From: Dillenia suffruticosa
Lineage: Eukaryota > Streptophyta > Magnoliopsida > Dilleniales > Dilleniaceae
Assembly: GCA_033439265.1 (NCBI GenBank)
Contig: JAVTVX010000019.1
Span: 18,502,039-18,566,038 of the forward strand
Direction: 5' to 3'
Length of the DNA stretch: 64,000 bases
A model generated the notes under the pieces. The model made no database searches, was not told the origin of the DNA, and saw only the letters and a program-made list of their open reading frames with translations. Both the position numbers and the translations under genes were made by a program. Positions 1,880 through 34,004 of the stretch are shown piece by piece; position 1 is the first letter of the stretch; every line of letters starts with the position of its first letter.

Positions 1880-2700
1880 CTCTGCTAAGGTCTGACCTTT
1901 GACAGCGGCTCAATAGGAGCCGTTGGAAGGTTGCTCCTGTATTCTTTTTATAGCAATAGGCATCGAACTTCATAATAAAGTTGGTCTTTTCCTCATCTTT
2001 GGGGGCCATACGAATGTGATTATAGTCTGAGTAGGTGCCCATAAAATTTAGGAGATAGTGTCATGATGAATTGTTTACGAGCTTGTCAATATTCTGGAGG
2101 GGATAGCTGTCTCTAGGGCAAGATTTATTGAGGTCGATAAAGTTGACGCACATTCTCTATTTGTCACTTGTCTTCTTTACCATAACCATGTTCGCTAGTC
2201 ATTTGGGATATTTCACCTCTCTGATGAAGTTCGCTGCTAGTAATTTATGTACTTCTTCTTGTTTCACTTGTTGGCGTTTGAACTCGAATATTCTTTTCTT
2301 TAACTTCACGGGCTTGCAGCTAGGATCCACTGTCAGCTTGTGTACAATGACAAAATGATGTATTTGTGACATGTCTTCAAGTTTCCACGCGAAAACACCA
2401 GAATTCCGCCATAAGCTTTCGACTAAGGTGTCCCAAAGGAGAGTTGGTAGGTGGGCTCCGATTTGAACTGTTTGGCCTGGGACATCGGTGATCTGGATTT
2501 CTATTACCTTTTCGCTAAGCTCAGGTTTTGTAGACTGATCAATGTTGTCTTTGAATTCTATAGTGTTTACATTGAGATTCTTTTTCCCTTCCTCCGATAC
2601 AGAGATATTTTGGAGGTCTAAATTGCAAGCGAGTGTTACAACACCCAAGAGTGTTCTGAACTTGACTTTCATATGTATGGTACTCGACAATGCTTCTAGA
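1880..2700 (-). pseudogene. Gypsy protease-RT linker and reverse transcriptase fragment
   Basis: One open stretch (2690 to 2199) carries the typical segment before the RT: an inhibitor-like region with QIGAHLP, GVFAWKLEDM, a VDPSCKPVK motif and FIREVKYPK. After a stop the RT continues as ANMVMVKK, then MCVNFIDLNKSCPRDSYPL, then GTYSDYNHIRMAPKDEEKT, matching the usual L-D-A-Y-S-G-Y-N-Q block with the first catalytic Asp lost (GTYSDYN). It then jumps to TGATFQRLL, lacking the usual MPFGLKN piece. The YxDD motif was not found. A relic. Confidence 0.8.
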
Positions 2701-3739
2701 TCGTTTAGACTGGTGACCCAAAATAGTGTTGTACAAGGATGGCAACTTGACCATACTAAAAGAAGTCATAGTGGAAGCGTAGTTGGGCGTGTTCCCCAAA
2801 TTATAGGAAGTGAGATAATACTTTCAAGGAATAGTTATTCGTTTGAGAATCCTTTCAAAGTTCCGATAGGGGGTTGAAGATGTGATGGATGGAAAGCCAT
2901 TTGAGAGATGACATCCCAGTAAAGGAGATCGCCCTCTGGTCGACCAATACTCTCTTACGACATATTGATCTATTTTGGCTGTGATGATGAGGGGGTTATG
3001 TCAACTTGGGTCGATTCCTTTTAAGTCATCATCGTCGAAACCAATCATCGGTCTCCTTATTTTTGGTAACATGCTAACAGGAGAAATAGGGCATTAATCA
3101 CTTTTAAGTTTATCAGTCGGTTGTTCCCAAGAACGATGCTAATCTGTTGATCCCAAAAAATGATCTCGCAACAGATCGCCCTTTTATCCTGAACAGGAAA
3201 CCAGTGATGAATTTTCGATAGAGATATATGCAAAAAACTCGTTGGAGGTGGTTCTGGCGAAGGAGGCTCCGATGCTCAAGTCAAAAGGAGCGGTTTTAGA
3301 AGGAAAGACTGAAAGAGACTAAATTCTGTGTAATCTCTATGTGTAATGTGTGGGAAGAGAAAGATGCGAACCTGACATGCTGCCTCTGTTTTATATACAT
3401 ATAGCATGTATGATAATGACATATGCACTTGGAAGCATAGAAACCCTATTTGTCTTGTAGAGAGATCGTATGAGATTTTTCGATATTATAAGAACCGTGG
3501 TGGTAAACTTTCTATAGATTCGAGGTCTTTCAAGACATGAAAGTTTTCCTGACTATCGCGGAGACCCGTAAATTTTTGAATCATTAAGAGATTTGTTTCT
3601 TTATTGGGAGAGAGAGTATTGAGCCCCTATCAAAATGGGAAATATTTACACTTGTTCTAGATTTCATTCCTTATTATATAGTTACAGCTAGGACTCATTA
3701 TGTAACAATGGTCAATTTGGTAAGGACCGAGGGTTGAGG

Positions 3740-6280: not shown

Positions 6281-6364
6281 TTAGTCGGATATCCTCATCT
6301 CAACTCCTAGAAGATCTTTGACCATCTCGTATGACACGAAGGCAATGGCTATTGATGGGACAAC
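6281..6364 (-). pseudogene. ADNT1-like exon 8 (last exon, intact)
   Basis: Acceptor CTTCAG, then VVPSIAIAFVSYEMVKDLLG, VEMRISD and a TAA stop, matching the family C-terminus exactly in length. It is separated from exon 7 by an 8.87-kb intron filled by the tRNA-Lys array. Confidence 0.87.
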
Positions 6365-6661
6365 CTGAAGATGAAAGCAGCAGGATGTGACAGAAACATA
6401 AATTTTTGCATTATTATGATTAACAATAAAGAGTCAAAAAAAAAAAAAAAAAAAAAACTGAAGAGGGGATGCAAATGCAATGGAACGGTTGAGTATTTCC
6501 AAGACCCAAGAAAATCATGACTAAATAGTTCATCTCCAATTCAAAATAAGAGTTTATTTGCAAAAATCTATATCTTTGCACTAGAACTTAGATAAACAGC
6601 TAGTCATGCGGAACACTTCTAGATTGAGATTCTTATAAGGATATATTTAGCTATAACAAAA

Positions 6662-6705
6662 GCCTATCTAGCTCAGCCGGTAGAGCGCAACACTCTTAAT
6701 CTTGT
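6662..6705 (+). pseudogene. tRNA-Lys relic 1 (5' half only)
   Basis: The acceptor 5' strand, D arm and anticodon arm are present. Sequence after CTTGT switches directly to spacer (TATAGCTAGTC), so the T arm and 3' acceptor are lost by deletion or recombination. Confidence 0.75.
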
Positions 6706-6836
6706 TATAGCTAGTCACAAGAGTTTATTTGCAACGACCTATGTCTTTGCATAAGAACTTAGAAAGATAAATGGCTAGTCACCTGGAACACTTCCAAACT
6801 CAAATTCTCATAAGGATATATTTAGCTATAACAGAA

Positions 6837-6909
6837 GCCCATCTAACTCAGTTGGTAGAGCACAAGGCTCTTAACCTCATGGTCATGGGTTCAAGCCACA
6901 TGATGGGTA
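6837..6909 (+). tRNA. tRNA-Lys(CTT)-like 2, degenerate
   Basis: Full length, 73 nt, anticodon CTT. The anticodon stem has two mismatches (CAAGG/CCTCA), the T stem one, and box B reads GGTTCAAGCC. Confidence 0.6.
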
Positions 6910-7191
6910 CTAAATATGTAAATTCTTGGCCAACCTCAAACCCAAAATTTGAGATTAAGACTCAATTTGTTGACATCTCACTTAATCACTATAATAAGCA
7001 ATTTTTAGCTAAACTTTATTTGCACTTAATCATTCTCATAAAACCATGGCTAAACAGTTTGTCTCCAATTCAAAATAAAAGTTTATTTGCAAGACCATTT
7101 CTTTGCACTAGAATCTAGAAAGATAAACAGCTAGTACTTGAAACACTTCTAGACTAAGATTCTCGTAAGGATATATTTAACTATAATAGAA

Positions 7192-7264
7192 GCCCATCTA
7201 GCTCTAACGGTAGAGCGTAAGGCTCTTAAACTTGTGGCCGTGGGTTCGAGAACCACGGTGGGCG
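7192..7264 (+). tRNA. tRNA-Lys(CTT) 3, mildly degenerate
   Basis: 73 nt, anticodon CTT, acceptor and T stems nearly paired. There is one mismatch in the anticodon stem, an altered D loop and a T-stem closing mismatch. A T8 run (7272-7279) follows, a good Pol III terminator. Confidence 0.65.
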
Positions 7265-7637
7265 CTTCGATGTTTTTTTTGTGTGGCTTCAATGTTAATT
7301 CTTGGACGATCACAAAATTTGAGATTGACATTCAATTTGTTGAAATCTCACTTAATCACTCTCATAAGGCAATTTTTAACTATATTTAATTTGCACTTAA
7401 TCACTCTAATAAAACCATGGCTAAATAGTTCGTTACCGATTCAAAATAAGAGTTTATTCACAAATACCTATTTATTTGCACTAGAAACCATGGCCAAATA
7501 GTTTGTCTCCAATTCAAAATAAGCTTATTTGCAAAGACTTATTTCTTTGGACTAGAACCAAGAAAGATAAATAGCTACATGGAACATTCCACTTCTGGAT
7601 TCAAATTCCCATAAGGATATATTTAACTATAACAGAA

Positions 7638-7710
7638 ACCTGTCTAGCTTAGTCGCTAGAGCGCAAGACTCTTAACCTTGTGGTCATGGCTTCGAGCCAC
7701 ACGGTGGGCA
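7638..7710 (+). tRNA. tRNA-Lys(CTT)-like 4, degenerate
   Basis: 73 nt with the CTT loop kept. Acceptor start ACC, D-loop GG lost (GCTA) and T-stem mismatches make it probably inactive. Confidence 0.5.
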
Positions 7711-7963
7711 CTTCTATATTAATTCTTGGCCGACTCCAAATTTAGGATTAAGTATCACTCTAATAAGATATTTTTAACTAAATTTTATTTGCACTTAATC
7801 ATTCTAATAAAACCATGACCAAACGGTTCATCTCCGAGTCAAAATAAGAGTTTATTTGCAAAGACCAAATTCTTTGCACTAGAACCTAGAAAGATAAACA
7901 GTTAGTCACCTCAAACACATCCAGACTAAGATTCTCATAAGGATATATTTAACTATAACAGAA

Positions 7964-8036
7964 GCCCGTCTAGCTCAGTCGGTAGAGCGCAAGACTCTTA
8001 ACCTTGTGGTCATGGGTTCGAGCTCAACGGTGGGCA
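7964..8036 (+). tRNA. tRNA-Lys(CTT)-like 5
   Basis: 73 nt. The acceptor, D arm and anticodon loop match the intact copies. The T stem (ATGGG/TCAAC) is poorly paired and the anticodon stem has one A-C mismatch. Confidence 0.6.
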
Positions 8037-8222
8037 CTTCTATATTAATTCTTGGCTAATCCAAAATTTAGAAACCACACTAAACAGCTCCTCCAATTCA
8101 AAATGAGAGTTTATTCACAAAGACCCATTTTTTTGCACTTGAACCTAGAAAGATAAATAGCTAGTCACCTTGAGCACTTCCAGAATAAGATTCTCATAAA
8201 GATATATTTAGCTATAATAGAA

Positions 8223-8295
8223 GCCCATCTAGCTAAGCCAGCAAAGCAAAAGGCTCTTAACCTTGTGGTCGTGGGTTCAAGTCCCATGATGGGCA
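8223..8295 (+). tRNA. tRNA-Lys(CTT)-like 6
   Basis: 73 nt with a fully Watson-Crick acceptor stem (GCCCATC/GATGGGC). The D loop lacks GG and the D stem is mispaired. T6 follows shortly downstream. Confidence 0.55.
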
Positions 8296-8574
8296 CTTCT
8301 ATGTTAATTTTTTGCCGATTTCAAAATTTGATATTTAAACTCAATTTATTAAAATCTCAATAAATCACTCTAATAAGACATTTTTAACTAAATTTTATTT
8401 GCACTTTATTGTTTTGATAAAACCATGGCTAAGCAGCTCGTCTCCAACTCAAAATAAGAGTTTATTTGCACAGACCTATTTCTTTGCACTAGAAACCTAG
8501 AAAGATATATAGCTAGTCACCTGGAACATTTCCAAACCGAGATTCTCATAAAGATATATTTAGCTATAACATAA

Positions 8575-8646
8575 GCCCGTCTAGCTTAGTCGGTAAAGTG
8601 CAAGGCACTTAACCTTGCGTCCATGGGTTCGAGCTCCCGGTGGGCA
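8575..8646 (+). tRNA. tRNA-Lys-like 7, broken loop
   Basis: 72 nt. The D stem is compensated (GCTT/AAGT), but the anticodon loop is CACTTAA, losing the invariant U33, and the T arm is one base short. Confidence 0.5.
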
Positions 8647-8923
8647 CTTCTATGTTAATTTTTGGCCAATCTAAAAATTTAAGATTAAATTTCAATTTGT
8701 TAAAATCTTACTTAATCACTCTCATAAGATATTTTAGCTAAATTTTATTTGCACATAATCACTCTGATAAAACCATAGCTAAATAGGTCGTCTCCAATTC
8801 AAAATAAGAGCTTATTTGCAAAGATCAATTTCTTTGCACTAGAACTCAGAAAGATAAAAATCTAGTCACCTGGAGCACTTCCTGACTAAGATTCTCATAA
8901 GTATCTATTTAGTTATAACAGAA

Positions 8924-8996
8924 GCCGGTCTAGCTCAATTAGTAGAGTGCAAGAATCTTAACCTTATGGTCATGGGTTCGAGCCCCACAGTGGGTG
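8924..8996 (+). tRNA. tRNA-Lys(CTT)-like 8
   Basis: 73 nt, CTT anticodon. There are a C-to-G change in the acceptor and weak anticodon-stem pairing (CAAGA/CCTTA). Partner of copy 15 in the next block. Confidence 0.55.
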
Positions 8997-9347
8997 TTTC
9001 TATGTTAATTCGTGGCCAACCTCAAAATTTGAAATTAAAACTCAATTTGTTGAAATATCACTTAATCACTTTGATAACACTTTTTTAATAAAATTTTATT
9101 TGCACTTGATCACTATGATAAAACCATAGCTAAACAATTCGTCTCCAATTCAAAATAAGAGTTTATTTGCAAAGACCTATTTCTTTGCACAAGAAACCAT
9201 GGCTAAAATGTTTTGTCTCCAATTCAAAATAAGAGTGTATTGCAAAGACGTATTTCTTTGCCTTAGAGCATAGAAAGATCAACGGCTAGTCACCTGGAAC
9301 ACTTCTAGACTCAGATTCTCATAAGGATATATTTAGCTATAATAGAA

Positions 9348-9420
9348 GCCCATCAAGCTTAGTTGGTAAAGTGCAAAACTCTTAATCTTGTGGTCATGGG
9401 TTTGAACCCCATGGTGGGCG
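9348..9420 (+). tRNA. tRNA-Lys(CTT)-like 9
   Basis: 73 nt. Acceptor and T stems pair, and the anticodon stem CAAAA/TCTTG is mostly compensated. Box B is GGTTTGAACC (C56 lost), so transcription is doubtful. Partner of copy 16. Confidence 0.55.
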
Positions 9421-9683
9421 CTTCTATAATGATTCTTGGCCGACTACAAAATTTAGAATTAAGTAACAAATTATTAAAATCTCACTTAATCACTATGATA
9501 AGATATTTTTAACTAAATTTCATTTGCACTTAATCACGTTAAACGGTTTGTCTCCAACTCAAAATAAGAGTTTATTTGCAAAGACCTATTTCTTAGCACT
9601 AGAACCTAGAAAGATAAATAGTTAGTCACTTGGAACACATCCAGACTAAGACTCTCATAAGGATATATTTAGCTATAACAGAA

Positions 9684-9756
9684 GCCCGTCTAACTCAATC
9701 AGTAGAGCACAAGGCTCTTAACCTTGTGGTCACAGGTTCGAGCCCCATAGTGGGCA
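9684..9756 (+). tRNA. tRNA-Lys(CTT)-like 10
   Basis: 73 nt. The anticodon arm is identical to the intact copy. The T stem ACAGG/CCCAT has two mismatches and the D loop GG is CA. Its partner one block later (12341) is perfect. Confidence 0.6.
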
Positions 9757-10092
9757 CTTCTTTGATAATTCTTGGCTGACCCCAAAATTTGAGATCAAAA
9801 CTCAATTTATTGAAATCTCACTTAATCACTCCGAAAATACATGTTTAACTAAATTTTATTTGCACTTAATCACTTTAATAAACCATGGCTAAAGAGTTCG
9901 TCTCCAATTCAAAATAAGTGTTTATTTGCAAAGACTTATTTCTTTGCACTAGAAACCATGGCTAAATAGTTCATTTCCAATTCAAAATAAGAGCTCATTT
10001 GTAATGACCTATTTCTTCGCATTAGAACCTAGGAAGATAAATAGCTAATCACCAGGAACACTTCCAGACTCAGATTCCCATATATAATAGAA

Positions 10093-10164
10093 GCCCATCT
10101 AACTCAGTTAGTAAAGCGCAAGACTCTTAACTTGTGGTTGCGGGTTCGAGCACCACGGTGTGCG
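10093..10164 (+). tRNA. tRNA-Lys(CTT)-like 11, 1-nt deletion
   Basis: 72 nt. One base is missing in the 3' anticodon stem (AACTTG), and the acceptor 3' strand is altered (GGTGTGC). Partner of copy 18. Confidence 0.5.
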
Positions 10165-10440
10165 CTTCTATGCTAATTCTTTGCCGATCCCAGTCTTTGG
10201 GATTAAAATTCAGTATATTGAAATCTTACTTAATCACTCTGATAAGACATTTTTAATTAAATTTTATTTGCACTTAATCACTTTGATAAACCTATGGCTA
10301 AATAGCTCGTTCAGTTCAAAATAATATTTTATTTATGAAGACCTATTTCTTTGCACTAGAATCTAGAAAGATAAACACCTAATCACCTGAAACATTTCCA
10401 GACTGATATTCGCATAAGGATATATTTAGTTACAACAGAA

Positions 10441-10509
10441 GCCCGTCTAACTCAATTGGTAGAGCACAAGGCTCCCTTATGATTGTGGGTTCGAGCCCCA
10501 TGGTGGGTG
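10441..10509 (+). pseudogene. tRNA-Lys relic 12 (anticodon arm damaged)
   Basis: 69 nt. The anticodon arm reads AAGGCTCCCTTATGATTG, with no normal seven-base loop. The partner copy 19 one block later is intact. Confidence 0.7.
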
Positions 10510-10785
10510 CTTCTGTGTAAATTCTTCGCTGATCCAAAATTTGGAATTAAAACTCAATTTATTGAAATCTCATTTAATCACTGTCATTAAGATATTTTTA
10601 ACTAAATTTTATTTGCAATTAATCACTCTGATAAAACCATGGCGAGACAGTTCCTCCAATTCAAAATAAGAGTTTATTTGCAAAGACCCATTTCTTTGCA
10701 CTAGAACCTAGCAAGATAAATAGCTAGTCACCTAGAGCACTTCCAGACTAAGATTCTCATAAGGATATATTTAGCTATAACAGAA

Positions 10786-10857
10786 GCTCATCTAGCTTAG
10801 CTAATAGAGCAAAAGGCTCTTAACCTTGTGGTCGTGGGTTCGAGTCCACGGTGGACA
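10786..10857 (+). tRNA. tRNA-Lys(CTT)-like 13
   Basis: 72 nt. The anticodon arm is nearly normal, the D loop lacks GG, the T arm is one base short and the acceptor has C-to-T and G-to-A changes. A T6 run follows. Confidence 0.5.
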
Positions 10858-11208
10858 CCTCTATGTTAATTTTTTGCAGACTACAAAATTTAGAATTTAG
10901 ACTTAATTTGTTGAAATCTCAATTAATCACTCAAATAAGACATTTTTAACTAAATTTTATTTGCATTTATCGCTTTGATAAAACCATGGCTAAACAGCTC
11001 GTCTCCAATTCAAAATAAGAGTTTATTTGAAAAGATCTATTTCTTTGCATTAGAGACCATGGCTAGATACTTCGTCTCCAATTCAATATAAGAGTTTATT
11101 TGCAAAGACCTATTTCTTTGCACTAGAAACCTAGAACGATAAACAGCTAGTCACCTAGAACATTTCCAAACCAAGACTCTCATAAAGATATATTTAGCTA
11201 TAACATAA

Positions 11209-11270
11209 GCCCGATTAGCTTAGTCGGTAGAGTGCAAGGCATTTAAGTGGGTTCGAGCCCCTAGTGAGCA
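11209..11270 (+). pseudogene. tRNA-Lys relic 14 (internal deletion)
   Basis: Only 62 nt; the 3' anticodon stem and variable loop are deleted (GGCATTTAAGTGGG). Partner of copy 7. Confidence 0.7.
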
Positions 11271-11545
11271 CTTCTATGTTAATTCTTGGTCGATCTAAAA
11301 ATTTAAGATTAAAGTTCAATTTGTTTAAATCTTACTTAATCACTCTGATCTATTTTTAGCTAAATTTTATTTGCACATAATCACTCTGATAAAACCATGG
11401 CTAAACAGGTCGTGTCCAATTCAAAATAAGAGCTTATTTGTAAAGACCAATTTCTTTGCACTAGAACTCAGAAAGATAAAAAGCTAGTCACCTTGAGCAC
11501 TTCCTGACTGAGATTCTCATAAGTATCTACTTAGTTATAATAGAA

Positions 11546-11618
11546 ACCCGTTTAGCTCAATCAGTAGAGCGCAAGATTCTTAACCTTATAGTCGTGGGTT
11601 CGAGTCCCATGCTGGGCG
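11546..11618 (+). tRNA. tRNA-Lys(CTT)-like 15
   Basis: 73 nt, CTT anticodon, T arm nearly normal. The acceptor has mismatches (ACCCGTT/GCTGGGC) and the anticodon stem is weakened. Confidence 0.55.
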
Positions 11619-11988
11619 CTTCTATGTTAATTCTTGTCTGATCCCAAAATTTGAAATTAAAACTCAATTTGTTGAAATCTCACTTAATCACTGTGATAAG
11701 ACATTTTTAATAAAATTTTAATTATACTTAATCACTATGATAAAACCATGGCTAAACAGTTCGTCTCCAATTCAAAATAATGCCTCCAATTCAAAATAAG
11801 AGTTTATTTGCATAGACCTATTTCTTTGCGCAAGAAATCATGGCTAAATATTTTGTCTCCGGTTCAAAATAAGAGTGTATTTGCAAAGACGAATTTCTTA
11901 GTATTAGAACCTAGAATGATCAACAGCTAGTCACCTGGAACACTTCTAGACTCAAATTCTCAAAAGGATATATTTAGCTACAATAGAA

Positions 11989-12061
11989 GCTCGTCTAGCT
12001 CAGTTAGTAAAGTGCAAAACTCTTAATCTTGGGGTCATAGGTTCGAACCTTACAATGGGCG
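11989..12061 (+). tRNA. tRNA-Lys(CTT)-like 16
   Basis: 73 nt, CTT anticodon. The T stem (ATAGG/CTTAC) and acceptor (GCTCGTC/AATGGGC) are eroded. Confidence 0.5.
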
Positions 12062-12340
12062 CTTCTATATTAATTCTTGGCCAGACTCCAAAATTTAGAA
12101 TTAAGTATCAAATTATTAAAATCTCACTTAATCATTCTGATAAGATATTTTTAACTAAATTTCATTTGCACTTGATCACTCTAATAAAACCATGGCTAAA
12201 CGGTTCGTCTTCAACTCAAAATAAGAGTTTATTTGCAAAGACCTATTTCTTTGCACTAGAACCTAGAAAGATAAATAGTCAGTCACTTGGAACACATCCA
12301 AATTGAAACTCTCATAAGGATATATTTAGCTACAACAAAG

Positions 12341-12413
12341 GCCCGTCTAGCTCAGTCGGTAGAGCGCAAGGCTCTTAACCTTGTGGTCGTGGGTTCGAGC
12401 CCCACGGTGGGCG
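12341..12413 (+). tRNA. tRNA-Lys(CTT), intact
   Basis: A perfect 73-nt cloverleaf: acceptor GCCCGTC/GGTGGGC, D stem GCTC/GAGC, anticodon stem CAAGG/CCTTG with loop CTCTTAA (anticodon CTT), T stem GTGGG/CCCAC with TTCGAGC, and discriminator G. Box A and box B are canonical and there is no intron. A TATA-like ATATATTTA and a CAA lie just upstream, and a T6 terminator lies at 12426-12431. It is the best candidate for an expressed gene in the array and decodes AAG. Confidence 0.95.
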
Positions 12414-12748
12414 CTTCTATGATTATTTTTTCTAATCCTAAAATTTGGGATCAAAACTCAATTTGTTTAAATCTCATTTAATCACTCTAGATAATACATA
12501 TTTAACTAAATTTTATTTGCACTAATCACTCTGATAAAACCATGGCTAAAGAGTTCGTCTCCAATTCAAAATAAGTGTTTATTTGCAAAGACTTATTTCT
12601 TTGCACTAGAAACCCTGGCTAAATAGTTCATTTCCAATTCAAAATAAGAGCTTATTTGCAATGACCCATTTCTTCGCACTAGAACCTAGGAAGATAATAG
12701 CTAGTCACCTGAAACACTTCTAGACTCAGATTCCCATATATAACAGAA

Positions 12749-12822
12749 GCCCGTTTAACTCAGTCGATAGAGCGCAAGACTCTTTAACATTGTGGTTGTG
12801 GGTTTGAGCCCCATGGTGTGCG
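12749..12822 (+). tRNA. tRNA-Lys-like 18, 1-nt insertion in anticodon loop
   Basis: 74 nt. The anticodon loop has an extra T (CTCTTTAA), which would make the anticodon ambiguous. Box B is GGTTTGAGCC. Probably inactive. Confidence 0.5.
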
Positions 12823-13098
12823 CTTCTATGTTAATTCTTTGTCAATCCCAACATTTGGGATTAAAACTCAATATTGAAATCTCACTTAATCACTCTAATA
12901 AAACATTTTTAACTAAATTTTATTTGCACTTAATAACTTTTATAAACCTATGGCTAAACGATTCGTGTCCAATTCAAAATAATAGTTCATTTACAAAGAC
13001 CTATTTCTTTGCACTAGAACCTAGAAAGATAAACACCTAGTCACCTCGAACATTTCTAGACTGAGATTCGCATAAGGATATATTTAGCTATAACAGAA

Positions 13099-13171
13099 GC
13101 CCGTCTAGCTCAGTCGGTAGAGCGCAAGGCTCTTAACCTTGTGGTCGTGGGTTCGAGCCCCATGGCGGGCG
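13099..13171 (+). tRNA. tRNA-Lys(CTT), intact
   Basis: 73 nt, differing from the copy at 12341 by two bases that keep pairing: T-stem G-T closing pair (CCCAT), and a stronger acceptor (GGCGGGC pairs G-C at position 5). Box A and box B are canonical. No run of four or more T lies close downstream, so termination may be inefficient. Confidence 0.93.
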
Positions 13172-13445
13172 CTTCTATGTTAATTCTTGCCTGATCTAAA
13201 ATTTGAGATTAAAACTCAATTTGTTGAAATCTCATTTAATCACTCTCATAATATATTTTTAACTAAATTTTATTTGCACTTAATCACTCTGATAAAACCA
13301 GGCTAAACAACTCCTCCAATTCAAAATAAGAGTTTATTTGCAAAGACCCATTTCTTTGCACTAGAACCTAGAAAGATAAATAGCTAGTCACCTGGAGCAT
13401 TTCCAGACTAAGATTCTCATAAGGATATATTTAGCTATTACAGAA

Positions 13446-13518
13446 GTCCATCTAGCTCAGCCAATAGAGCGAAAAGCTCTTAATCTTGTGGTCATGGGTT
13501 CGAGCCCCATGGTTGACG
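13446..13518 (+). tRNA. tRNA-Lys(CTT)-like 20
   Basis: 73 nt. T stem ATGGG/CCCAT is paired. The acceptor (GTCCATC/GGTTGAC) and anticodon stem (AAAAG/TCTTG) are eroded. T6 follows. Confidence 0.55.
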
Positions 13519-13796
13519 CTTCTATGTTAATTTTTTCCCGAGTCCAAAATTTAGGATTTAGAGTCAATTTGTTGAAATCTCAATTAATTATTCTAATAAG
13601 ACATTTTTAACTAAATTTTATTTGCACTTTATCGCTTTGATAAAACGATGACTAAACAGCTCGTCTCCAATTCAAAATAAGAATTCATTTGCAAAGACCT
13701 ATTTCTTTGCATTAGAACCTAGAAAGATAAACATCTAGTCACTTGGAACACTTCTAGACTAAGATTATCATAAGGATATATTAATCTATAATAGAA

Positions 13797-13869
13797 TCCC
13801 ATCTAACTTAGTCGGTTGAGCGCAAGGCTCTTAATCTTGTGGTCGTGGATTTGAGTCCCATGGTGGGCA
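13797..13869 (+). tRNA. tRNA-Lys(CTT)-like 21
   Basis: 73 nt, CTT loop normal. G1 is T, the T loop reads TTTGAGT, and the T stem has a mismatch. Confidence 0.5.
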
Positions 13870-14133
13870 CTTCTATGTTAATTCTTGGCCAACCCCAAAA
13901 CCAAAATTTGGGATTAAAATTCAATTTGTTGAAATCTTACTTAATCACTCTAATAAGATATTTTTAACAAAATTTTATTTGCACTTAGTCTCTCCCATAA
14001 AATCATGGCTAAACAGTTCATCTTCAATTCAAAATAAAAGTTTATTTTCAAAGACCTATTTATTTGCACTAGAATCTAGAAAGATAAATAAGAGACTGAG
14101 ATTCTCATAAGGATACATTTAGCTATGGCAGAA

Positions 14134-14206
14134 GCCCATTTAGCTTAGTCAGTAAAGCACAAGGCTCTTAACCTTGTGGTCGTAAGTTCACGCCCCACGG
14201 TGGGCG
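14134..14206 (+). tRNA. tRNA-Lys(CTT)-like 22
   Basis: 73 nt. Anticodon arm normal. T arm GTAAG-TTCACGC destroys box B and the T stem. Confidence 0.5.
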
Positions 14207-14444
14207 CTCTTATGTTAATTCTTGGCCAATCGCAAAATTTAGGATTAAGACTTGTCTGTTGATAAGACATTTTTAACTAAATTTTATTTGCACTTAATCA
14301 CTCTTATAAAACCATGGCTAAAGAGTTCATCTTGAATTCAAAATAAGAGTTTATTTGCACTAGAACCTTGACAAATAAACAGCTAGTAACCTGAAACTCT
14401 TCCGGACTCAGATTCTCATAAAGATATATTTAGCTATAACGGTA

Positions 14445-14506
14445 GCCCGTCTAGCTCAGTCAATAGAGCAAAAGACTCTTAACCTTGTGGTCGTGGGTTC
14501 GAGTCT
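14445..14506 (+). pseudogene. tRNA-Lys relic 23 (3' truncated)
   Basis: Normal from GCCCGTC through TTCGAGTC, then it jumps into spacer (TCCCAACTCTAAAATTTGG). The 3' T stem and acceptor are missing. Confidence 0.7.
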
Positions 14507-14761
14507 CCCAACTCTAAAATTTGGAAAACTCAATTTGTTGAAATCTCACTTAATCACTCTGATACGACATTTTTAACTAAATTTTATTTGCACTTAATCA
14601 CTATGATAAAACAATGGCTAAATAGTTCATCTCCAATTCAAAATAAGAGTTTATCTGTAAAGATCTATTTCTTTGCACTAGAACCTAGAAAGATCAACCG
14701 CTAGTCACTTGAACACTTCCGGACTAAGATTCTCATAAGGATACATTTAGTTATAACAAAA

Positions 14762-14861
14762 ACCCGTCTAGCTTAGTCAGTAGAGCGCAAGGCTCTTAAC
14801 CTTGTGGTGGTGGGTTCGAGCCCCAACCTTGTAGTCATGGGTTCGAGACCTATGGTGGGTG
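14762..14861 (+). pseudogene. tRNA-Lys relic 24 (internal 27-nt duplication)
   Basis: The segment AACCTTGTGG to GAGCCCC is followed by a second, diverged version (AACCTTGTAG to GAGACCT), giving 100 nt with two T arms. This suggests unequal recombination between two units inside the tRNA. Confidence 0.75.
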
Positions 14862-15231
14862 ATTCTATATTAATTCTTGACCGACCCCAAAATTGAATTA
14901 AAACTCAGTTTGTTGAAATCTCATTTAATCATACTGATAAGGCATTTTAACTAAATCTTATTTATTCATTTGCTAGACTTACCAAACAAACAAGTCCATC
15001 ACTAATCTATGTATTATTCATGCATAAGACAAAAGTTGCAAGGGTCCCCCAAGAATGCACAGTGAAATGTGAAAATCAAGGTTTTAGCTCCCTTTTTTGC
15101 TGATGACAACCAGGGACCATCAACCACCCCTTCAACAGATGAATTAGTGTTCAATTATCAGCCAAGACCAGGTCTCATGTAAATTATTCTGTTAGCTGAT
15201 CAAAAGATTTAACCTATAATATGCCACTGAC

Positions 15232-15575
15232 CTTAACTGAGTTGGGGACCAAACCCTTGTACAGTGCTCCAAAACCCTCATGTCAAACAGTTTTCCGAAT
15301 GCATCAATCATTCCGTTATACTCGAGACGGACCTTGCTTCTTCCGTCTCCAGTCACAATAGAAGCAGCATCTTTCCATCCTACCGTCTGCATTCGTCGGC
15401 GGATGACATCAAGAGGGTAAGCAACAGTTTGCCCTATAGTGCCTGCAGCAGCTCCACGTGCCAGCCTAGTCATGACACTCAGTTCATTATCTTCAACTAG
15501 TCCAAATGGTTTACTTTTGATCAACCAATCCTTTAAAGATTCATACACAGCAAAATTGAGGCCTGCATAAGGAAC
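15232..15575 (-). pseudogene. ADNT1-like exon 7 (third signature; frameshift and stop)
   Basis: Acceptor ATGCAG, donor GTCAGT. It encodes VPYAGLNFAVYESLKDWLIK, then GAAAGTIGQTVAYPLDVIRR, RMQTVGWKDA and LEYNGMIDAF. At about 15295-15297 one base is missing (TTC-GG for TTCAGG), shifting the frame. In the original frame CGA has also become TGA (15283-15285). Exon length 344 nt against an expected 345 supports the single deletion. Confidence 0.87.
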
Positions 15576-16600: not shown

Positions 16601-16709
16601 CTGACTAGTCTGCCTCGTACCATGTCCATGGGATATGTGGCAGACATTGCAATGATTCCAGCACATGCACCAGCTCCAAGGCGTAAAACAGGAGTTAGCA
16701 CCGCATCCT
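16601..16709 (-). pseudogene. ADNT1-like exon 5 (second carrier signature; 4-nt deficit)
   Basis: Acceptor TTGCAG, donor GTAATA. It encodes EDAVLTPVLRLGAGACAGII, AMSATY and PMDMVRGRL. Plants have RLTVQ at the exon end; here only CTAGTCAG follows AGA, four nucleotides short, so normal splicing shifts the frame. An upstream GTCAGG (exon end at 16606) would restore frame with loss of three residues. Confidence 0.83.
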
Positions 16710-17384: not shown

Positions 17385-17930
17385 GTTTACACCATACAAC
17401 AATAACAACAAACTGAACCTTAATCTCAATATTTGGAATCGCCCATTTGAGAGACAAATTTGAAAAAAAAAATAGAGAAAATAAAAATAAAATCAAAATC
17501 AAAATCAAAATCAAATAAAAATCAAATAAAAATCAAATTAAATTAAAAATCAAATTAAAATTAAAAGAAAAAAAGAAATAAATAAATCAATAGATAAATA
17601 TTTAAAATATATTAATTTAATTTGTGTGGATTTTTCTACGCTATTCATTCCTATCCAACACCATTTTCTCTTCTAAACCCTTAACTTCCATGTCTTTACG
17701 AATAATTTGCATCTAAATTTTCAGCGGTTTATCTTTACGTTTTACTAGATCTCATATATTTAAGTTCTCGGTTCTCCTAACCGGAACTTCTTTGGGTTTT
17801 CTTTGCATATGCCCAAACCATCTCAGACGACACTCTCGCATCTTATCCTCAATTGAACTAACTCCCAATTTGTTATGAATCTTTTTGTTTCTAATTCTAT
17901 CTCTTCTAGTTTCTAATTCTATCATTTACA
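17385..17930 (-). mobile_element. 5'-truncated LINE (3' end of reverse-transcriptase ORF)
   Basis: The minus strand ends with the plant LINE tail GATTAAGGTTCAGTTTG-TTGTTATTGTTG (17385-17415 on the plus strand reads CAACAATAACAACAAA). Upstream of that is a stretch alignable by eye with 63430-63660 of this window: both have AACAAA(T/A)TG, TCAATTG, GATAA(G/A)ATGCGA, TGTCGTCT and GGTGGTT/GATGGTT in the same order. An A-rich AAAATC simple repeat (about 17462-17580) lies inside it. Non-coding. Confidence 0.7.
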
Positions 17931-20294: not shown

Positions 20295-20375
20295 CAGCAC
20301 GTTGTAACAGCATGTAATGTACTAAATGCTTTACAAATTATACACAACATACTTATAAAACAATAAGACAGTTAC

Positions 20376-22095: not shown

Positions 22096-23194
22096 TGTCT
22101 CTTTGGACTCAACCAGCCGGAGCTTTTAAAGGAATTTCTCTTCAGGATATAATAGGGAGTAAAAGGTCTTTTTGAGTTGAATTTTGCCTTATTTTATCTT
22201 TTCCTCTCCTTGCCTAGAGGATTCCATCAACCTTTGGAATATCTCTTTCTTCTTTTCTTCTAATTAAAAAGTAAAAGAAATTCAATCAACTTCAACTATC
22301 CACTATTTTCAATCTTATCTACTTGAGCACATGTTATTGTAAAGAATACTTAAAATTTTTAAAACTGCACTAAGCCTGAGATATCTGGAATCTTTCCATG
22401 ATTGGTACATGGCAAAGAAAATCAATACACTATACCAATGCTGGGTAGAAGGTGGATAAAAGTGCTCCCCAACCAACATGGTAGTATTAACTCAAAGTCT
22501 TATTTAAAACCCACCCGGGGGGTTTCAGAAAAATAAAAAAAAGAAAAAAAAGCCTTCTATTACCATCCACAGGAATAACCGGATCAAAGGACAAAAATCA
22601 TAGTTCTCAGACCATATAAGAGAGGATTCTCATCAAGAATCTCCTCATCATTTAAGACGGAAATAGAGCATTGAGCACATGTTAAAACATAATCCATTCT
22701 TGAAGGGGAAGAGGATCACATTACTAGCAATTTAACATGGGAGACTGAGTGGGACCTTGTCAAAACTAAACTGTGATGAACCAACCAGGAAAAAAAAATC
22801 TCCATCTACCATCCTGCTTAGGACATAAACAAAAAAAGGAGGATAGAAAAGCAACATGTTCATGGCCAATGTTAGGAAATGGAGCTTAGGTTCAACATTG
22901 GCAACTGCATGAAGAAAAAAGAATGTGGATAACCCTCTAATCCGCTTCTCCATTGAACCCCAGAGTCTTTTGGTCAATAACCCTGTCAATAAATTATGAA
23001 TTTACCTTGCTAGGCAATTTAAGGTAGCCACGTGGAAAAAGAACTTGCCATTGCAGGGTCAGATATACCACTTTGCCTCAACAAGGCTTTTCTTGAGACA
23101 TAAATCCATAGAGGTTTGTACAGAAGTAACCCTTTTTAAATATATATATATATATATATATATTCTTAAAACAACTTTATTGGAAAAAAATTAC

Positions 23195-25752: not shown

Positions 25753-25922
25753 ACTCAACCGGCTACACCGCCGGTGACAAGAGACTTGCAGATGGAGAAA
25801 AAAGCGAGACTAGCAGGAGCCTTATATCCTTCCCTCGCAAGCTTAGCTTCTTCGGCTAGGTTTACGATCGTCGTCACCGCGCTCTCAGTCGTACTCTTTC
25901 CCACCACATCCTCCGACGCCAT
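25753..25922 (-). pseudogene. ADNT1-like exon 1 (start codon, premature stop at its end)
   Basis: The ATG at 25922 opens MASEDVVGKS, and the frame continues through TIVNLAEEAKLAREGYKAP and ICKSLVTGGVAG, matching the ADNT1 N-terminus and the start of carrier repeat 1. The donor after 25753 is GTAAGT, a perfect plant donor. The codon at 25757-25755 is TGA where the family has Gly (GGA). If the weaker GTTGAG just upstream were used as donor, this stop would be skipped. Confidence 0.85.
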
Positions 25923-25979: not shown

Positions 25980-26077
25980 GCAAAAATCTCAACCGTCGGG
26001 CAGAAACTGCATTCATGAGAAGAAGGAAAGAAGGGGGGTACAGCGGTGAGTGACGGCAATTTCAGTAGTTCAGAGAC

Positions 26078-26111
<34 letters not shown>

Positions 26112-26117
26112 TAGCAG

Positions 26118-26132
26118 CTGCACGTCGTGCAG
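26118..26132. promoter_or_regulatory. 15-bp palindrome with ACGT core
   Basis: CTGCACG-T-CGTGCAG is a perfect inverted repeat, next to a (TA)n and CA run at 26079-26110. It marks the border between the carrier 5' flank and the GTTCTGC-rich AT block. Confidence 0.35.
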
Positions 26133-26219
26133 TATAGTGTTTTGATTTTTGCCGATAAGAGGAGTTGCTCGTATGATTAAGTAAAATTCGTACCTATGAT
26201 ACCAAAGAAATGAAAAAAA

Positions 26220-26945
26220 AAGATGGGGAGAAATATATTTTAAATATATTCATTTAATATTAAATATATTATATCAAAATAAAAAAATATATTAGAATAT
26301 AAAAAAAAGTATGCTTATTTAAATATATTTAGATTTAACTTATTGATTTATATACATCTAGATTTAAATATATATATTAAAAATGTAGTGTACGTGGTGT
26401 GTGTATTATATATTAAAAGTTATACGTTAACTCCAAAAAAGTGTTTAAAATAGAATTAAATATGTCTTTTCATTTTTTTCAGATTTTTTTATCAATTTTA
26501 ATTTTTTAAAATAGTTCTGTGCTGTGCAAGACGGCAATAAAGTTTTGCGTTTTGCAGAACTACATGCGATATATTTGAATATATATATTTAGATATTTGA
26601 AATTAAATTAAAATATTAAATTGAAATAGAATGTGATAATAATAAATAATAAACCAAAACTAAATTATTATTTAATATGTAATATAATTCAAGTAGAGTT
26701 ATACATATCTTTATCTAATATAGAATCGTATAAGAAGAAAAATATAAAAATATTTAATTTAAATAATTAGATTTTCATTTAACATTAAATATATTATATG
26801 ACAATAAAAAAATATATTAGAATGGGAAAAAACGTATGTTATATTTAAATATATTTAGATCTGAGTTGTTTATTTAAATACGCATGGATTTAAATTTCTA
26901 TATTAAAAATGTATTGTACGTGGTGTGTGTGTTATATATTAGAAA
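26220..26945. repeat. Two diverged copies of a 200-bp unit
   Basis: 26220-26420 and 26745-26945 share TTAAATATATTATAT, then AAAAAAATATATTAGAAT, then the marker TGTACGTGGTGTGTGT. Partial relatives occur near 29680-29790 and 31915-31945. Confidence 0.7.
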
Positions 26946-27190
26946 TTATTTGTTAAAACAAAATTAAATGTTATTGGTTAAATTTTTTGTCTTTATTGTT
27001 TTTAATTTTTTAGTAGTTCTGCCTAAACAAAACCACAAAATAGTTTTGCAGTTATTGGAAAAACTACAAGGTAGTTCTGCATTTTATAGAACTGCAATAT
27101 GTTTATGCGCTTAGCAGAACCACAAGATGCAGAATGACAATGCAGTTCTATATTTCACAAAACGACAACGTGATTCCGGGCAGGGCAGAA

Positions 27191-29230
27191 CTACAAAATA
27201 TTTCAATAATCATTTAACGATAAGTAGCTTAAATTATCTATTAAATTATATTTTTTACTGATTGTATGTATACTATACACTATTTAAATATTTAAATAAT
27301 TATTTAGTATTTAATATTTTAAATCAAAAGGGAAAAATATCCGGATAATATTAATATTTATGTAAAAATTAAAATATGTAAATATTAATTTGAAACTATA
27401 ATATTTAATAATTTTGATCTAAAGAATATATAAATTTTAATATTTAATTAAAATTTCATAAAATATACAAAATATTGAAAATAATTTAGTTATTTAAATA
27501 TTTAATAGAATAAATTAAGTATTCTATCGATTGGTATTCAACCGTAAAGTTTTTAAATCAGAGTTTGAATGATTTTAAAAATTATCGTTTATTTAGAAAC
27601 TTATTGGATTTACCTTTTGTCTATTGAAAATCTTTATAAATTATAGTTTTGAATAAAATGTTAATTGTAATATAAAATATAAGAATGTTAAATAACAAAC
27701 AAAAACTAAAACTTATAAATATTAACATATAATTTAAAACTTTATAAGAGCAAAAATATTTAAATATTTAACATAAATATGTACATATTTATTTAACACT
27801 ATCTAAATTATATATTAAATTAAATATATGTTTATCACAAGGTGGTTCTGCACTTTGCAAAACTACAAGGTGGTTCCGCATTTAGGAGAACCACAAGACG
27901 CAGAATCACAATATGGTTCTGCTAGTCGTAGAACAACAAGGTAGTTCTGCGCTTAGTAAAACCATAAGGCGCAAAACGACAACATGATTTCTTATAGTAC
28001 AGAACTACAAAATATTTAAATAATCATTTAATAATAAGTACACTAAATTATATATTAAAGTATATTCTTTACTGATTGTATGTATACTATACATACTATT
28101 TAAATATTAAAATAATTATTTAATATTAAATATTCTAAATCAAAAGAGAAAAATTATCTAGATAATATTAATTTTTGTATGAAAATTAAAATATGTAAAT
28201 ATTAATTTGAAACTATAATATTTAATAATTTTTATCTAAAGAATACATAAATTTTAATATTTAATTAAAAGTTCATAAAATATACAAAATATTGAAAATA
28301 ATTTAGTTATTTAAATATTTAATAGAATAAATTAAGTATTCTATTAGTTGGTATTGAATCACAAAGTTTTAAGTCAGAGTTTGAACGATTTTAAGAATCA
28401 TTGTCTATGTAAAAACTGAATGGATTTATTTTTTTTCTATCGAAAATCTTTATAAATTATAGTTTTGAATAAAATATTCATTGTAATATAAAATATAAAA
28501 ATATTAAATAACAAATCAAAACTAAAACTGATAGATAGTAACATGTAATTTTAAATCTTATAAGAGTAAAAATATTTAAATATTTAATGTAAATATGTAC
28601 ATATTTATTTAACATTATCTAAATTATATATTAAATTAAATATATATGGAACTAGAAGATGATTCTGCGCTTAGCAAAGTTGCAAGGTGATTTTGCGCTT
28701 AGTAGAATCGCAAGGTGGTTCTACGCTTAATAGAATCGCAAGCTGGTTTTGTGCTTAGCAAAAATGCAAGGTGCAAAACTACAATTTGGTTCTGTTGGTC
28801 GCAGAACGAGAAGCTAGTTCTGTGCTTAGAAGAACCACAAGGCGCAGAATGACAAGGTGGTTCTGCGTTTTACAGAACGATATCGTGATTCCGCACAATA
28901 TAAAATTACAAAATATTTAAATAATCATTTTACAATAAATACTCTAAATTATCTATCAAATTATATGTTTTAGGATTGTATGTATACTATACATACTATT
29001 TAAATATTTAAATAATTATTTAACATTAAGTATTTTAAATCAAAAGGAAAAAAAATATCTGGATAATATTAATTCAAAACTATAACATTTAATAATTTTG
29101 ATCTAAAAAATACATAAATTTTAATATTTAATTAAAAGTTCACAAAATATACAAAATATTGAAAATAATTTAGCTATTTAAATATTTAATAGAATAAACA
29201 AGTATTGTATTGGTTGGTAATCAATTGCAA
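27191..29230. repeat. Three tandem 0.8-0.9-kb units
   Basis: Homologous units start at 27191, 28005 and about 28906 (offsets 814 and 901 bp). Each starts CTACAAAATATTT, contains GATTGTATGTATACTATAC, GGATAATATTAAT-like and ACAAAATATTGAAAATAATT segments, and ends in a cluster of GTTCTGC hairpins. A partial fourth copy lies at about 29345-29520. Confidence 0.85.
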
Positions 29231-30646
29231 AGTTTTTAAAACATATTAGTTGGCAGAACCACCACGTGGTTTTGCAGAGGGAAGTACGAAAGATTTGTGC
29301 AATAAGTTCTGGTATTTTCCAAATTATAGTTTTTATTCCTTATTTTTCTACATATTATTTAAATATTTAAATAATTATTTAAGATTAAATATGCTAAATA
29401 AAGATGAAAAAATAATTAGATAATATTAATATTTGTGTAAAAATTGAATTATATAAATATTAATAATCTGAAACTATAATATTAAATAATTTAAATTTTT
29501 AAAACACACAAAATTTTAATCAAATATGATAATATTAAATAATAAATTAAAGCTAAATTATGATTTAATATCTAATGTAATTTAAGTTGAGATATAACTG
29601 TTTTTATTTAATCTAGAATTGTATAAAAATAAAAATATTTAGATATTTAGTTCAAATAATTAGAATTAGATTTAACACTGAATATATTATATTAAAATAA
29701 AAAAAAATGTCAAAATAGGAAAAAATATATGTTATATTTAGATTTAAAATGTTTATTTAAATACGTTTGGATTTAAATTTAGATTGTCTTGGTTAGTTTT
29801 ATAAAAGAAATATAATTTTTTTAAAATAAAATCTCAATATTTTAATTTAACAGAAAATATATAATATTAAAATCTTAAAAAATACTTGTATAATATTATA
29901 TCTAAACATATTTATTTTTTTAAAAAAATTTTGTCGTTCTGCACGCAGAATCACATGGGTCTACGACTTGCAGAACAGCAAAGTGGTTCTACGCTTTACG
30001 TGATTAGCAAAACGACAACATGGTTCTGCAGGTTACACAATCACATGGTGGTTCTACGTTTCACCGAATGTCATTATGGTTTTATTAAATATTCATTTGG
30101 TTGGCATTCTCGATGAGTTTGCGCCGATCAATTTATGTATAAGTAATCTAACTTTATAAATTAAATCTCTCTTTATTCTTTTTCAAGTAATGTAGGAATT
30201 GCTTAGAGTTAACCGTAGAGTATTTAACTTAGAATGTTAATCTTTTTAAGAATTATTGTCTATCTAAAATTTTTATTTTAGTAGTTTTAATTTTTGTCTA
30301 ACAAAAATATTTTAAAATTGAAATTTCAAATAAAATGTTAATCGTAAAATAAAATATAAAAATATTAAATTATAAACCAATACTAAAACTTATAAATATA
30401 AATATGCAATTTAAAATTTTATAAGAATAAAAATATTTAAATATTTAATTTAAATATGTAGATATTTATTTAAAACTAAATAAATTAGATATTAAATAAA
30501 TTATATTTGAAAAAATATCTGTATAATATTATATAATGTTATGTTTAACTGACATAATTGTTTTTGAGTTCTGCTATGCAGAACTATCTGATTCTGTTAT
30601 AATTCTGGTATGCAGAATTATATAGTTCTACGGTGCAGTTCTGTAC

Positions 30647-30706
30647 ACCTTCGTCAACGAAGGTTCAAGCCTTCGTCGATGAAGGCATGCTCTTTCGTCA
30701 ATGAAG
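30647..30706. repeat. Cluster of CCTTCGTCGACGAAGG palindromes
   Basis: Three adjacent variants (30647-30662, 30669-30684, 30692-30706) of a 16-bp palindrome occur within 60 bp. A fourth partial copy lies at 32155-32169. They sit directly next to GCAGAAC motifs. Confidence 0.75.
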
Positions 30707-31536
30707 GTTTCTGCATTTGTTAGCAAACATTAATTTTTTTTTAAAATCTGAAAGGTTGTCTCAAAAATAATAAAAAAAAAAACTTTGTTTTTTGTTTTTC
30801 TAAATAAAATATGTTCGTATAATTAATTTTAAATAGTTTGTTTATAAATAATAAATGAAAATTTTAATTCAACGGAGTTTTTTATTCTTTCAAAATATTA
30901 TTATTATTTTTAAAGCACCCGAAAACATTTTTTTGGTTTTATTTAGGGTAGTGATGGTGTAAATGATTTAAAAACTACATCTAAATAATTTTTAAAAGTT
31001 TAAATTGGATTTGTTTATGTAAAATTACTATAGTTTTCCTTTTTTTTTATATAAAATATTTTGACAAATGGTGGATATTATTAAAAATCATAATTTGGTA
31101 AATAATTTAAATAATAAAATATTTTGATAATATTAAAAGTAAAATGAAATGCAAATGTAAAAGTATAAATGCAAAACAATGAAATGCTCAGAATTATGGA
31201 ATACCACAACAAAAACATATTGGGCAACCGCTTTAATGGTTTAATCTAAAATTATAATATTTAATAATTTAACTATAAAAAATTCATAAATATTAATATT
31301 TGATTTAAAGTTTTTAAAAAATAAAAATTAAAAAAAATTAATTTAAATATTTAAATATTTATATAATATTAAAAGTAATTAGAAAATTTAAATATTAAAA
31401 TTAACATTTTATCTGAATCAAATATTAAAGCCTAAACCAAATATTATTTACCTATAAAAAATCAAAATAGTTTTTACTTGACAAAACTACCTTAGGAGTT
31501 CTGCACTTCGCAGAATCACTTGATAGGAGGGAGGTG

Positions 31537-31700
31537 GGGAGGGGGAGAGAGAGAGAGAGAGAGAATGAGAGGGAGGTAGGAGGGTGGTGGGAAGAGAGAG
31601 AGAAAGAGAGAGAGATTAAATGTATGTATTTAATTCATGTATTAAATAATAAAGAGAGAGAGATAGAGTAATAAATGAAGAGAGAGAGAGATAAAGAAAG
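31537..31700. repeat. GA-rich microsatellite tract
   Basis: Several (GA)n runs and AGAGAGAGA variants lie inside the GTTCTGC block. Confidence 0.85.
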
Positions 31701-32570
31701 AAATTGAGGAATATTTAAAATTTTATATGAAAAAAATATTTAAATATTTAATTTAAATACGTAGATATTTATTTAAAACTAAATAAATTATGTCCGGAAA
31801 AAAATTATTTGTGTAATATTATATAATATTATGTTTAAACGACATAATTGTTGTTGAGTGTTTATATATCTCTTTTTTTTAGGCCTTTTTTTTATATAAA
31901 AAGAGACGTGACAAAATGTAGCTTGTGGTGTGCGTACTATATATTAAAAAGTATATAATTAAATTGTTAATTTTAATTTTTATACAATTTTAAATGATAA
32001 AAATACTTATATATCTATTTAAATAAAAATATTAATAATGTTGTTTTGTTTCATCAATTAATATTTTCACATTTTATGTAATAAGGTGACACGTAAAACT
32101 ATGTAGTTCTGCAATGTAGAATTATGTAGTGCTGGTATGCAGAACTATACTCTTTCATCGACGAAGGTTCCTGCCTAGCAAGAGCGCGTGCACCGGGTTT
32201 ATAATCTTAAATTTTAAAGTATTATATTTCAGTATTATATAAATATAAATTTAATAGTATTATAATATTATAGTATTTTTATTATATGCAAAAACATTTT
32301 ACATATAATAAAACGAGCTATATAATACTTTTTCGTATTTTTAATATAATTGAAAATTTTTATAATACTGTTATCATTATATTAATAACATATAACCCAA
32401 GGAAAAATATTTTTTAAATATAAAAATAATTTCAAATAATTTTTATTTAATATTTTTAGAATTATAAATTTTACATTATTATTATATTATAGTAAATTTA
32501 TTATATATCATTTAGTTTAAATATTTTTGATACCTTTAGTGTAATCATATAATTTTTTAATAAAAGTATT

Positions 32571-33973: not shown

Positions 33974-34004
<31 letters not shown>

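Follow-up and report, generated by a model that had tools for sequence, protein, structure and literature searches.

Intron 7 of a decayed mitochondrial carrier gene, which we take to be ADNT1-like, holds 24 tandem units resembling tRNA-Lys(CTT) in the stretch of Dillenia suffruticosa DNA analyzed here (the window, 64,000 nucleotides). It is probable that a chimeric retroposon, made of a tRNA-Lys and the 3' end of a long interspersed nuclear element (LINE), landed in this intron, was amplified in tandem, and has mostly decayed. We see in the result a tRNA array that was seeded by a retroposon and is in decay; one of its genes is potentially live, and any function of the array is putative. In the mechanism that we propose, the reverse transcriptase of an RTE-type LINE would start by copying the 3' end of the LINE RNA before switching template to a tRNA-Lys(CTT) precursor, yielding a chimera of tRNA-Lys and LINE end. 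Of two close ADNT1-like carrier copies, one would have received this chimera in its last intron, and the insert, together with about 200 bp of surrounding intron, would have been amplified to about 24 units, single units first and a seven-unit block later. The units would then have decayed mainly by C-to-T change in the order CG > CHG > CHH, as expected of methylated DNA. The window sits on contig C19 of an assembly of 596 Mb in 37 contigs; coordinates without a prefix are window positions, L-numbers are fetched loci, and C-numbers are contigs.

Array structure and the insert-free related locus

Intron 7 of the carrier gene (minus strand) runs from 6365 to 15231 and measures 8,867 bp. All 24 units within it lie on the plus strand, antisense to the carrier, and form a head-to-tail cluster when this is taken as at least three tRNA genes of one kind at short spacing. 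The number of units called depended upon the test: ARAGORN called 10, the Rfam tRNA model found 16 at its gathering score and 21 at an E value of at most 1, and a profile built from the units themselves gave 25 strong plus-strand rows, the last two of which are halves of one rearranged unit; the first unit is truncated. The first-pass annotation had described 24 tRNA-Lys(CTT) units nested antisense in the last intron, and the nesting, the strand, and the number hold as a count of units but not as a count of genes. The anticodon CTT is kept in 22 of 24 units, whereas the A-box and B-box motifs that we looked for are both kept in only 3 of 24. One unit is identical to the canonical tRNA-Lys, one has 2 changes, and the other 22 have 5 to 28.

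Each unit consists of about 200 bp of host intron and an insert of about 137 bp. The insert comprises a short leader, a 73-nt tRNA-Lys, and a tail of 39 to 57 nt that ends in TTTGTTG, with parts lost in some units; nothing else is evident in it. The first-pass annotation did not recognize that each unit combines a tRNA-LINE chimera with host intron, nor that most units are pseudogenes.

The host-intron part of the units is present as a single copy in a related carrier gene on C30 (L009 4943-4800 and 4794-4746). The first of these two pieces, the upstream part, matches all 24 units and reaches the junction in 21, and the second, the downstream part, matches 14 of 24 at the cutoff used. Only 5 nt separate the two pieces in C30 (between L009 4800 and 4794), and the insert is lacking there. 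A lone element on C9, described below, matches 22 of the 24 units solely in the part between the two intron pieces. Intron 7 is 534 bp long in the C30 gene and roughly 0.35 kb in two further copies, on C2 and C5. Because the C30 intron is without the insert and ARAGORN found no tRNA in the last introns of the C30, C2, and C5 copies, the window intron is most simply the derived state and C30 the empty site.

LINE origin of the tail

A 64-nt consensus tail was used as a query, and 40 of 69 candidates were scored. Eighteen were the array itself and 22 lay elsewhere at 83 to 100% identity; 21 of these 22 ended at query base 56 or 57, that is, at TTTGTTG. Twenty of the 22 outside loci were fetched, and most have T-rich sequence upstream, like the 3' part of a LINE, while several are ultrashort copies starting at or near GGCC. 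Very short LINE-end copies with flanking repeats make up 4 of the 20 (repeats of 20 bp in L075, 18 bp in L079, 13 bp in L068, and 10 bp in L073). Of the 24 units, 10 were compared with a profile of 14 dispersed LINE ends, and all 10 were matched, at 11.5 to 32.7 bits. The profile scored 23.7 bits on the C9 element, against a best of 7.2 bits in 940 shuffles, and it scored above 0 in none of 12 single tRNA-Lys loci.

Seven loci were fetched with about 4.4 kb of upstream sequence, and in four of them (L080, L081, L085, and L086) a reading frame with a common LINE C-terminal motif, which we take to be of RTE type, lies just upstream of the tail. Two of these four have tails of the C9 kind and two have tails of the array kind. 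TTG is the ending described for RTE elements in flowering plants (PMC3747384). The insert thus shares its 3' end, with the TTG ending, with a LINE of the same genome, as a short interspersed nuclear element (SINE) would.

As a separate observation, L075, L079, L068, and L073 hold little beyond the last 39 nt of the LINE. In such short copies the reverse transcriptase seems to halt at the border of one small hairpin, which was read by eye.

A second chimera and the unlikely alternative of DNA-level transfer

The lone tRNA-Lys on C9 (L010 4656-4728) has the canonical sequence and a similar LINE tail, and a copy of TATTGTTTA flanks it on each side. This 9-bp repeat encloses both the tRNA and the LINE end, and an equally long match occurred in 4 of 300 random pairs. 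The C9 tail finds its best matches in a different set of dispersed ends (36 other places) from that of the array tail; the two chimeras may thus have separate origins. The array has the tRNA-derived RNA polymerase III head of a SINE; it shows no target-site duplication, and no dispersed family with this head came up. Because the join of tRNA-Lys and tail was found only at C9 and in the C19 array among the 40 candidates scored (of 48), we class the element as a chimeric retroposon and not as a SINE family.

Several points weigh against retroposition of such a chimera. The main one, against simple retroposition, is at the array itself, where comparison with the C30 site showed no target-site repeat around the founder insert and about 6 nt of target appear to have been lost. 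The C9 repeat is short, and a 9-bp match is also present at L041, one of the 12 ordinary single loci; it is of simple sequence, and a match as long occurred there in 32 of 300 random pairs. A query that joined the final 28 nt of the tRNA to the tail gave joint matches only at C9 and in the array (40 of 48 candidates scored). Finally, Pfam gave no accepted match to the LINE fragment in the host gene (Table 1); for this reason we base the assignment to RTE on the TTG ending, under the rule cited above, and on the C-terminal motif that we recognize as RTE-like.

In the strongest competing account, a tRNA-Lys gene would have been transposed or duplicated at the DNA level into the intron, where a LINE end adjoined it by chance, and tandem duplication would have followed. 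In its favor, no target-site repeat surrounds the array insert, and the genome does hold tandem tRNA-Lys arrays free of the LINE tail: the dispersed-end profile scored below 0 on the C15 array and at most 0.3 bits on that of C18. On the other side stand the second join of tRNA-Lys and LINE end at C9, with a repeat enclosing both parts; an insert that holds nothing evident but leader, tRNA, and LINE end; and the lack of such a tail at all 12 single tRNA-Lys loci. We therefore regard this alternative as unlikely and retain the chimeric retroposon as the better account.

Other tRNA-Lys arrays in the genome

The genome has 63 exact copies of the canonical tRNA-Lys(CTT) gene, 47 of them in two large arrays (22 at C15:4848119-4900684 and 25 at C16:2081467-2120539), and smaller arrays lie on C5 and C18. 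Clustering of tRNA-Lys genes, which the first-pass annotation had called unusual, is thus a repeated feature of this genome. By eye, the flanks of the C15 and C16 arrays are unlike those of the window array and unlike each other. Five copies of the C16 cluster scored 7.9 (in two), 6.9, 3.4, and -0.5 bits with the LINE-end profile, the highest value being barely above the shuffle best of 7.2.

The C5 cluster (L011 3400-5800; C5:3057407-3060761) has a period of about 370 bp. Its tail matches four dispersed places outside the cluster (on C27, C12, C11, and C4) at 83 to 97%; the LINE-end profile reached at most 1.6 bits on it, and its match to the array tail was no better than chance (538 of 1,000 shuffles). 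The C5 cluster may be another chimera-founded array. In a broader reading, RTE-type LINE chimeras would recurrently seed tRNA genes and then arrays in this plant; C9, C19, and perhaps C5 would be separate chimeras formed with different LINE subfamilies, since their tails match different dispersed ends best, and the candidate live gene at 12341 would have been born in this way. We offer this reading tentatively from sequence comparison and lean somewhat against it.

At another C9 locus, L066 (C9:9690861-9691896), a complete tRNA (Rfam, 65.5 bits) is followed by a degraded tRNA-Phe-like stretch and then by a LINE end of the array type. By eye this locus looks like a tRNA-Phe/LINE chimera, but the complete tRNA upstream complicates that reading. 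That tRNA resembles tRNA-Gln, and a two-headed chimera is possible.

Amplification, decay, and a candidate live gene

Two blocks of seven units can be paired across the array (Table 1). Paired units lie 2.56 to 2.66 kb apart and are 88 to 92% identical outside the tRNA, with reciprocal best matches in six of the seven pairs. The remaining pair belongs to a trio (8223/10786/13446), so that unit 13446 opens a third, partial block. This pairing suggests that single-unit duplication probably came first and that duplication of the seven-unit block came later.

Relative to the canonical tRNA, transitions affect 28% of CG, 19% of CHG, 10.5% of CHH, and 2.1% of A/T positions (21 units; 6663, 14446, and 14763 were dropped as truncated), the difference between CG and A/T having a p value of 3e-29. 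The order CG > CHG > CHH is that of plant cytosine methylation, which suggests that the units were methylated as they decayed. The tRNA part has diverged at 216 of 1,651 sites (13.1%), compared with 336 of 3,204 and 135 of 1,300 sites in the spacer (10.4 to 10.5%; 23 units, with 6663 dropped). With the tRNA part changing no more slowly than the spacer, no selection for tRNA function is seen across the whole array. The unit damage, the spacer-like rate of change, and the decay spectrum together rule out 24 working tRNA genes.

The unit at 12341 is different from the rest. It has the canonical cloverleaf, the anticodon, the A and B boxes, and the T-run terminator of a functional gene. Its tRNA has 0 changes in 73 sites compared with 25 in 263 elsewhere in the unit (Fisher p = 0.002; the unit was chosen among 23). 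Nineteen other units (three truncated units were dropped) have a mean tRNA change of 14.8% (203 of 1,369 sites), a rate at which 0 of 73 would occur with a chance of 8e-6 before correction for the choice of unit. A run of at least five T's within 15 nt follows five other units of 21 checked, all with damaged tRNA. The second-best unit, at 13099, has 2 of 73 changes in the tRNA compared with 22 of 264 elsewhere (p = 0.12), and its first run of at least four T's comes about 85 nt downstream, with no near terminator. Thus, one unit, possibly two, is potentially still fit to be a tRNA-Lys gene, and its transcription is a prediction from these features. The conservation of 12341 could reflect selection or gene conversion, between which the data do not distinguish.

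A second alternative would make the array a selected, functional reservoir of tRNA-Lys, perhaps with tissue-specific expression like that of the Arabidopsis Ser/Tyr cluster, which is reported to be methylated yet reactivated in root tips (PMC12308677). The unchanged tRNA, T6 terminator, and CAA-like leader of 12341 speak for this prediction, as does the low change in the tRNA of 13099. However, the 19 other units have changed no more slowly in their tRNA than the spacer has, few units keep both internal promoter motifs, and gene conversion could also keep 12341 canonical. The 63 exact copies in the genome make one more unlikely to be needed, and 62 of these are available beyond 12341. We consider such a reservoir quite unlikely and continue to read the array as a mostly decayed retroposon derivative.

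The host gene

The carrier copy in the window is a pseudogene. The C30 copy has an intact reading of 358 amino acids in 8 exons with the three Mito_carr repeats of a carrier, and the window copy fails to provide them. On the branch to the window copy we counted 19 nonsynonymous and 12 synonymous changes compared with 4 and 15 on the C30 branch (p = 0.008), with 19 further differing sites that could not be assigned to either. The decay noted in the first-pass annotation is borne out by stop codons, a lost exon 2, a lost acceptor, and deletions (Table 1). The array may have arrived before or after the host gene decayed, and this evidence accommodates both orders; the contribution of the array to that decay, which the first-pass annotation had suggested, is thus no more than a possibility.

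The units differ from C30 by a mean of 19% in the upstream intron part, and the C19 and C30 copies differ by about 17% over the neighboring 2.5 kb, which indicates that the array is old. This similarity would also suit a chimera or array that was already present in the ancestor of the two related genes and later disappeared from C30. Loss would, however, require excision at the exact borders of the insert with the surrounding intron left in place, and the C2 and C5 loci are tRNA-free by ARAGORN as well; we judge an ancestral array very unlikely. That exons 7 and 8 come from different copies and were brought together by misassembly, a reading for which we found no supporting point, has a close to negligible probability: both flanks are collinear with C30 (6000-6423 and 14958 onward, in pieces of 79 to 88% identity), and the units differ by 8 to 23% from their closest partners outside the tRNA, so that long reads should place them. 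The splice signals of exons 7 and 8 are proper, and exon order and splice sites agree with the C30, C5, and C2 copies. Because three other copies have the same exons in the same order, exons 7 and 8 are parts of a single gene copy and the length given for the intron is correct, as the first-pass annotation had proposed in bracketing the intron with these exons.

Table 1. Positions of the array, its parts, and the host-gene features in the window
Feature	Position	Strand	Details
Tandem array	6517..14975	+	24 units of ~350 bp; tRNA starts 174-446 bp apart
Unit with canonical tRNA-Lys(CTT)	12341..12413	+	Followed by T6 run (12426-12431); preceded by TATA-like and CAA-like sequence
Second-best unit	13099..13171	+	Canonical except for 2 substitutions; highest Rfam score (67.3 bits)
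Representative insert	13093..13227	+	Leader ACAGAA, tRNA-Lys, ~57 nt of LINE 3' end finishing TTTGTTG
Higher-order block A, seven units (tRNAs 8223 to 10441)	8163..10785	+	Pairs with block B
Higher-order block B, seven units (tRNAs 10786 to 13099)	10786..13445	+
RTE-type LINE fragment in another intron of the host gene	17390..17920	-	Remnant of C-terminal open reading frame, T-rich 3' part, array-like 3' end at ~17405-17445
Exon 8 (last) of carrier pseudogene	6281..6364	-	Reading frame intact; aligned to C30, C2, and C5 copies
Exon 7 of carrier pseudogene	15232..15575	-	Pfam Mito_carr match; aligned to C30 copy
Exon 7 lesions relative to C30 copy	near 15297; 15285-15283	-	1-nt deletion; in-frame TGA
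Exon 1 lesion in host copy	25755..25757	-	In-frame TGA; aligned to C30 copy
Exon 2 absent from host copy, expected place	22280..22440	-	49 bp in C30, C2, and C5
Exon 3 acceptor in host copy	20295..20296	-	TG; AG in C30, C2, and C5 copies
Exon 5 in host copy	16601..16709	-	4-bp deletion near 16610

Elsewhere in the window, positions 26001-34000 have a GC content of 0.19 to 0.22, compared with 0.36 and 0.42 in the neighboring 2-kb bins, and hold tandem repeats of 28, 83, and 96 bp. An open frame of 188 amino acids at 2199-2765 (minus strand) presumably derives from a Ty3/gypsy pol, which it resembles. A G-rich 114-bp sequence stands in tandem duplicate at 55367-55579 with 96% matches.

Discussion

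Tandem tRNA clusters are described as common in eudicots (PMC11700998), and in Arabidopsis tRNA-Pro genes are reported often to overlap introns in antisense orientation and an intron of AT1G53400 to contain a tRNA-Cys mini-cluster, again antisense (PMC10701932). An intronic antisense cluster, which had struck the first-pass annotation as unusual, is thus on record for tRNA-Pro and tRNA-Cys. The Arabidopsis Pro and Ser-Tyr-Tyr and maize Ile clusters (PMC11700998, PMC12308677) resemble the window array in repeating an isoacceptor or a set head to tail with spacer, and the methylation-type decay of the array fits the methylation reported in these papers. Unlike the clusters as described there, the array is of Lys, is built of an intron and LINE-end unit, consists mostly of pseudogenes, and has its founder and empty site still visible. 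The Arabidopsis tRNA-Cys clusters (PMC10701932) come close in their units of about 0.4 kb, antisense intronic mini-cluster, flanking pseudogene, and transposon marks, but these marks are of Helitrons and not of a LINE, each cluster has few genes, and the passages considered report no chimeric join. Tandem and intronic antisense tRNA clusters are therefore already known in plants, and the apparent novelty lies in the retroposon origin and its empty site.

The TS SINE of tobacco has a head derived from tRNA-Lys. Like the window array, it joins a tRNA-derived head to the 3' end of an RTE-clade LINE (its partner being RTE-1_STu) that finishes in TTG repeats, as described in PMC3747384. It differs, according to the same source, in being a SINE family with about 100 nt in common with its LINE, whereas the array has an unmodified tRNA-Lys head and a LINE part of 39 to 57 nt, and its join was found only at C9 and C19 among the matches listed. 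In birds, SINE birth by switching of a LINE reverse transcriptase to a tRNA template has been proposed for PittSINE (PMC5729268), where it would similarly give a chimera of tRNA and LINE tail with a target repeat; unlike the array, which was amplified by tandem duplication, PittSINE is described as based on a CR1 LINE and dispersed by retroposition. Cassandra (PMC7215508) is likewise reported as a small retroelement in plant tandem arrays, but it is a long terminal repeat element, with 5S-like sequence according to PMC10886601. The titles and abstracts listed for plant tRNA-Lys clusters and for tandem SINE arrays included none of this makeup, a chimera with an empty site that turned into a tandem intronic array, which may still be in print elsewhere.

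To our knowledge, the question of how plant tRNA gene clusters are born is not settled, and the array suggests one way in which this can happen. It also carries a caution: tandem tRNA calls in a plant genome need not be a set of working genes and may instead be an array of pseudogenes seeded by a retroposon. A single genome here shows the founder insert, a related locus free of it, a similar chimera with flanking repeats, and the decay of the copies. Because these four traces occur together, the step from a retroposed tRNA to a tandem array becomes datable and testable.

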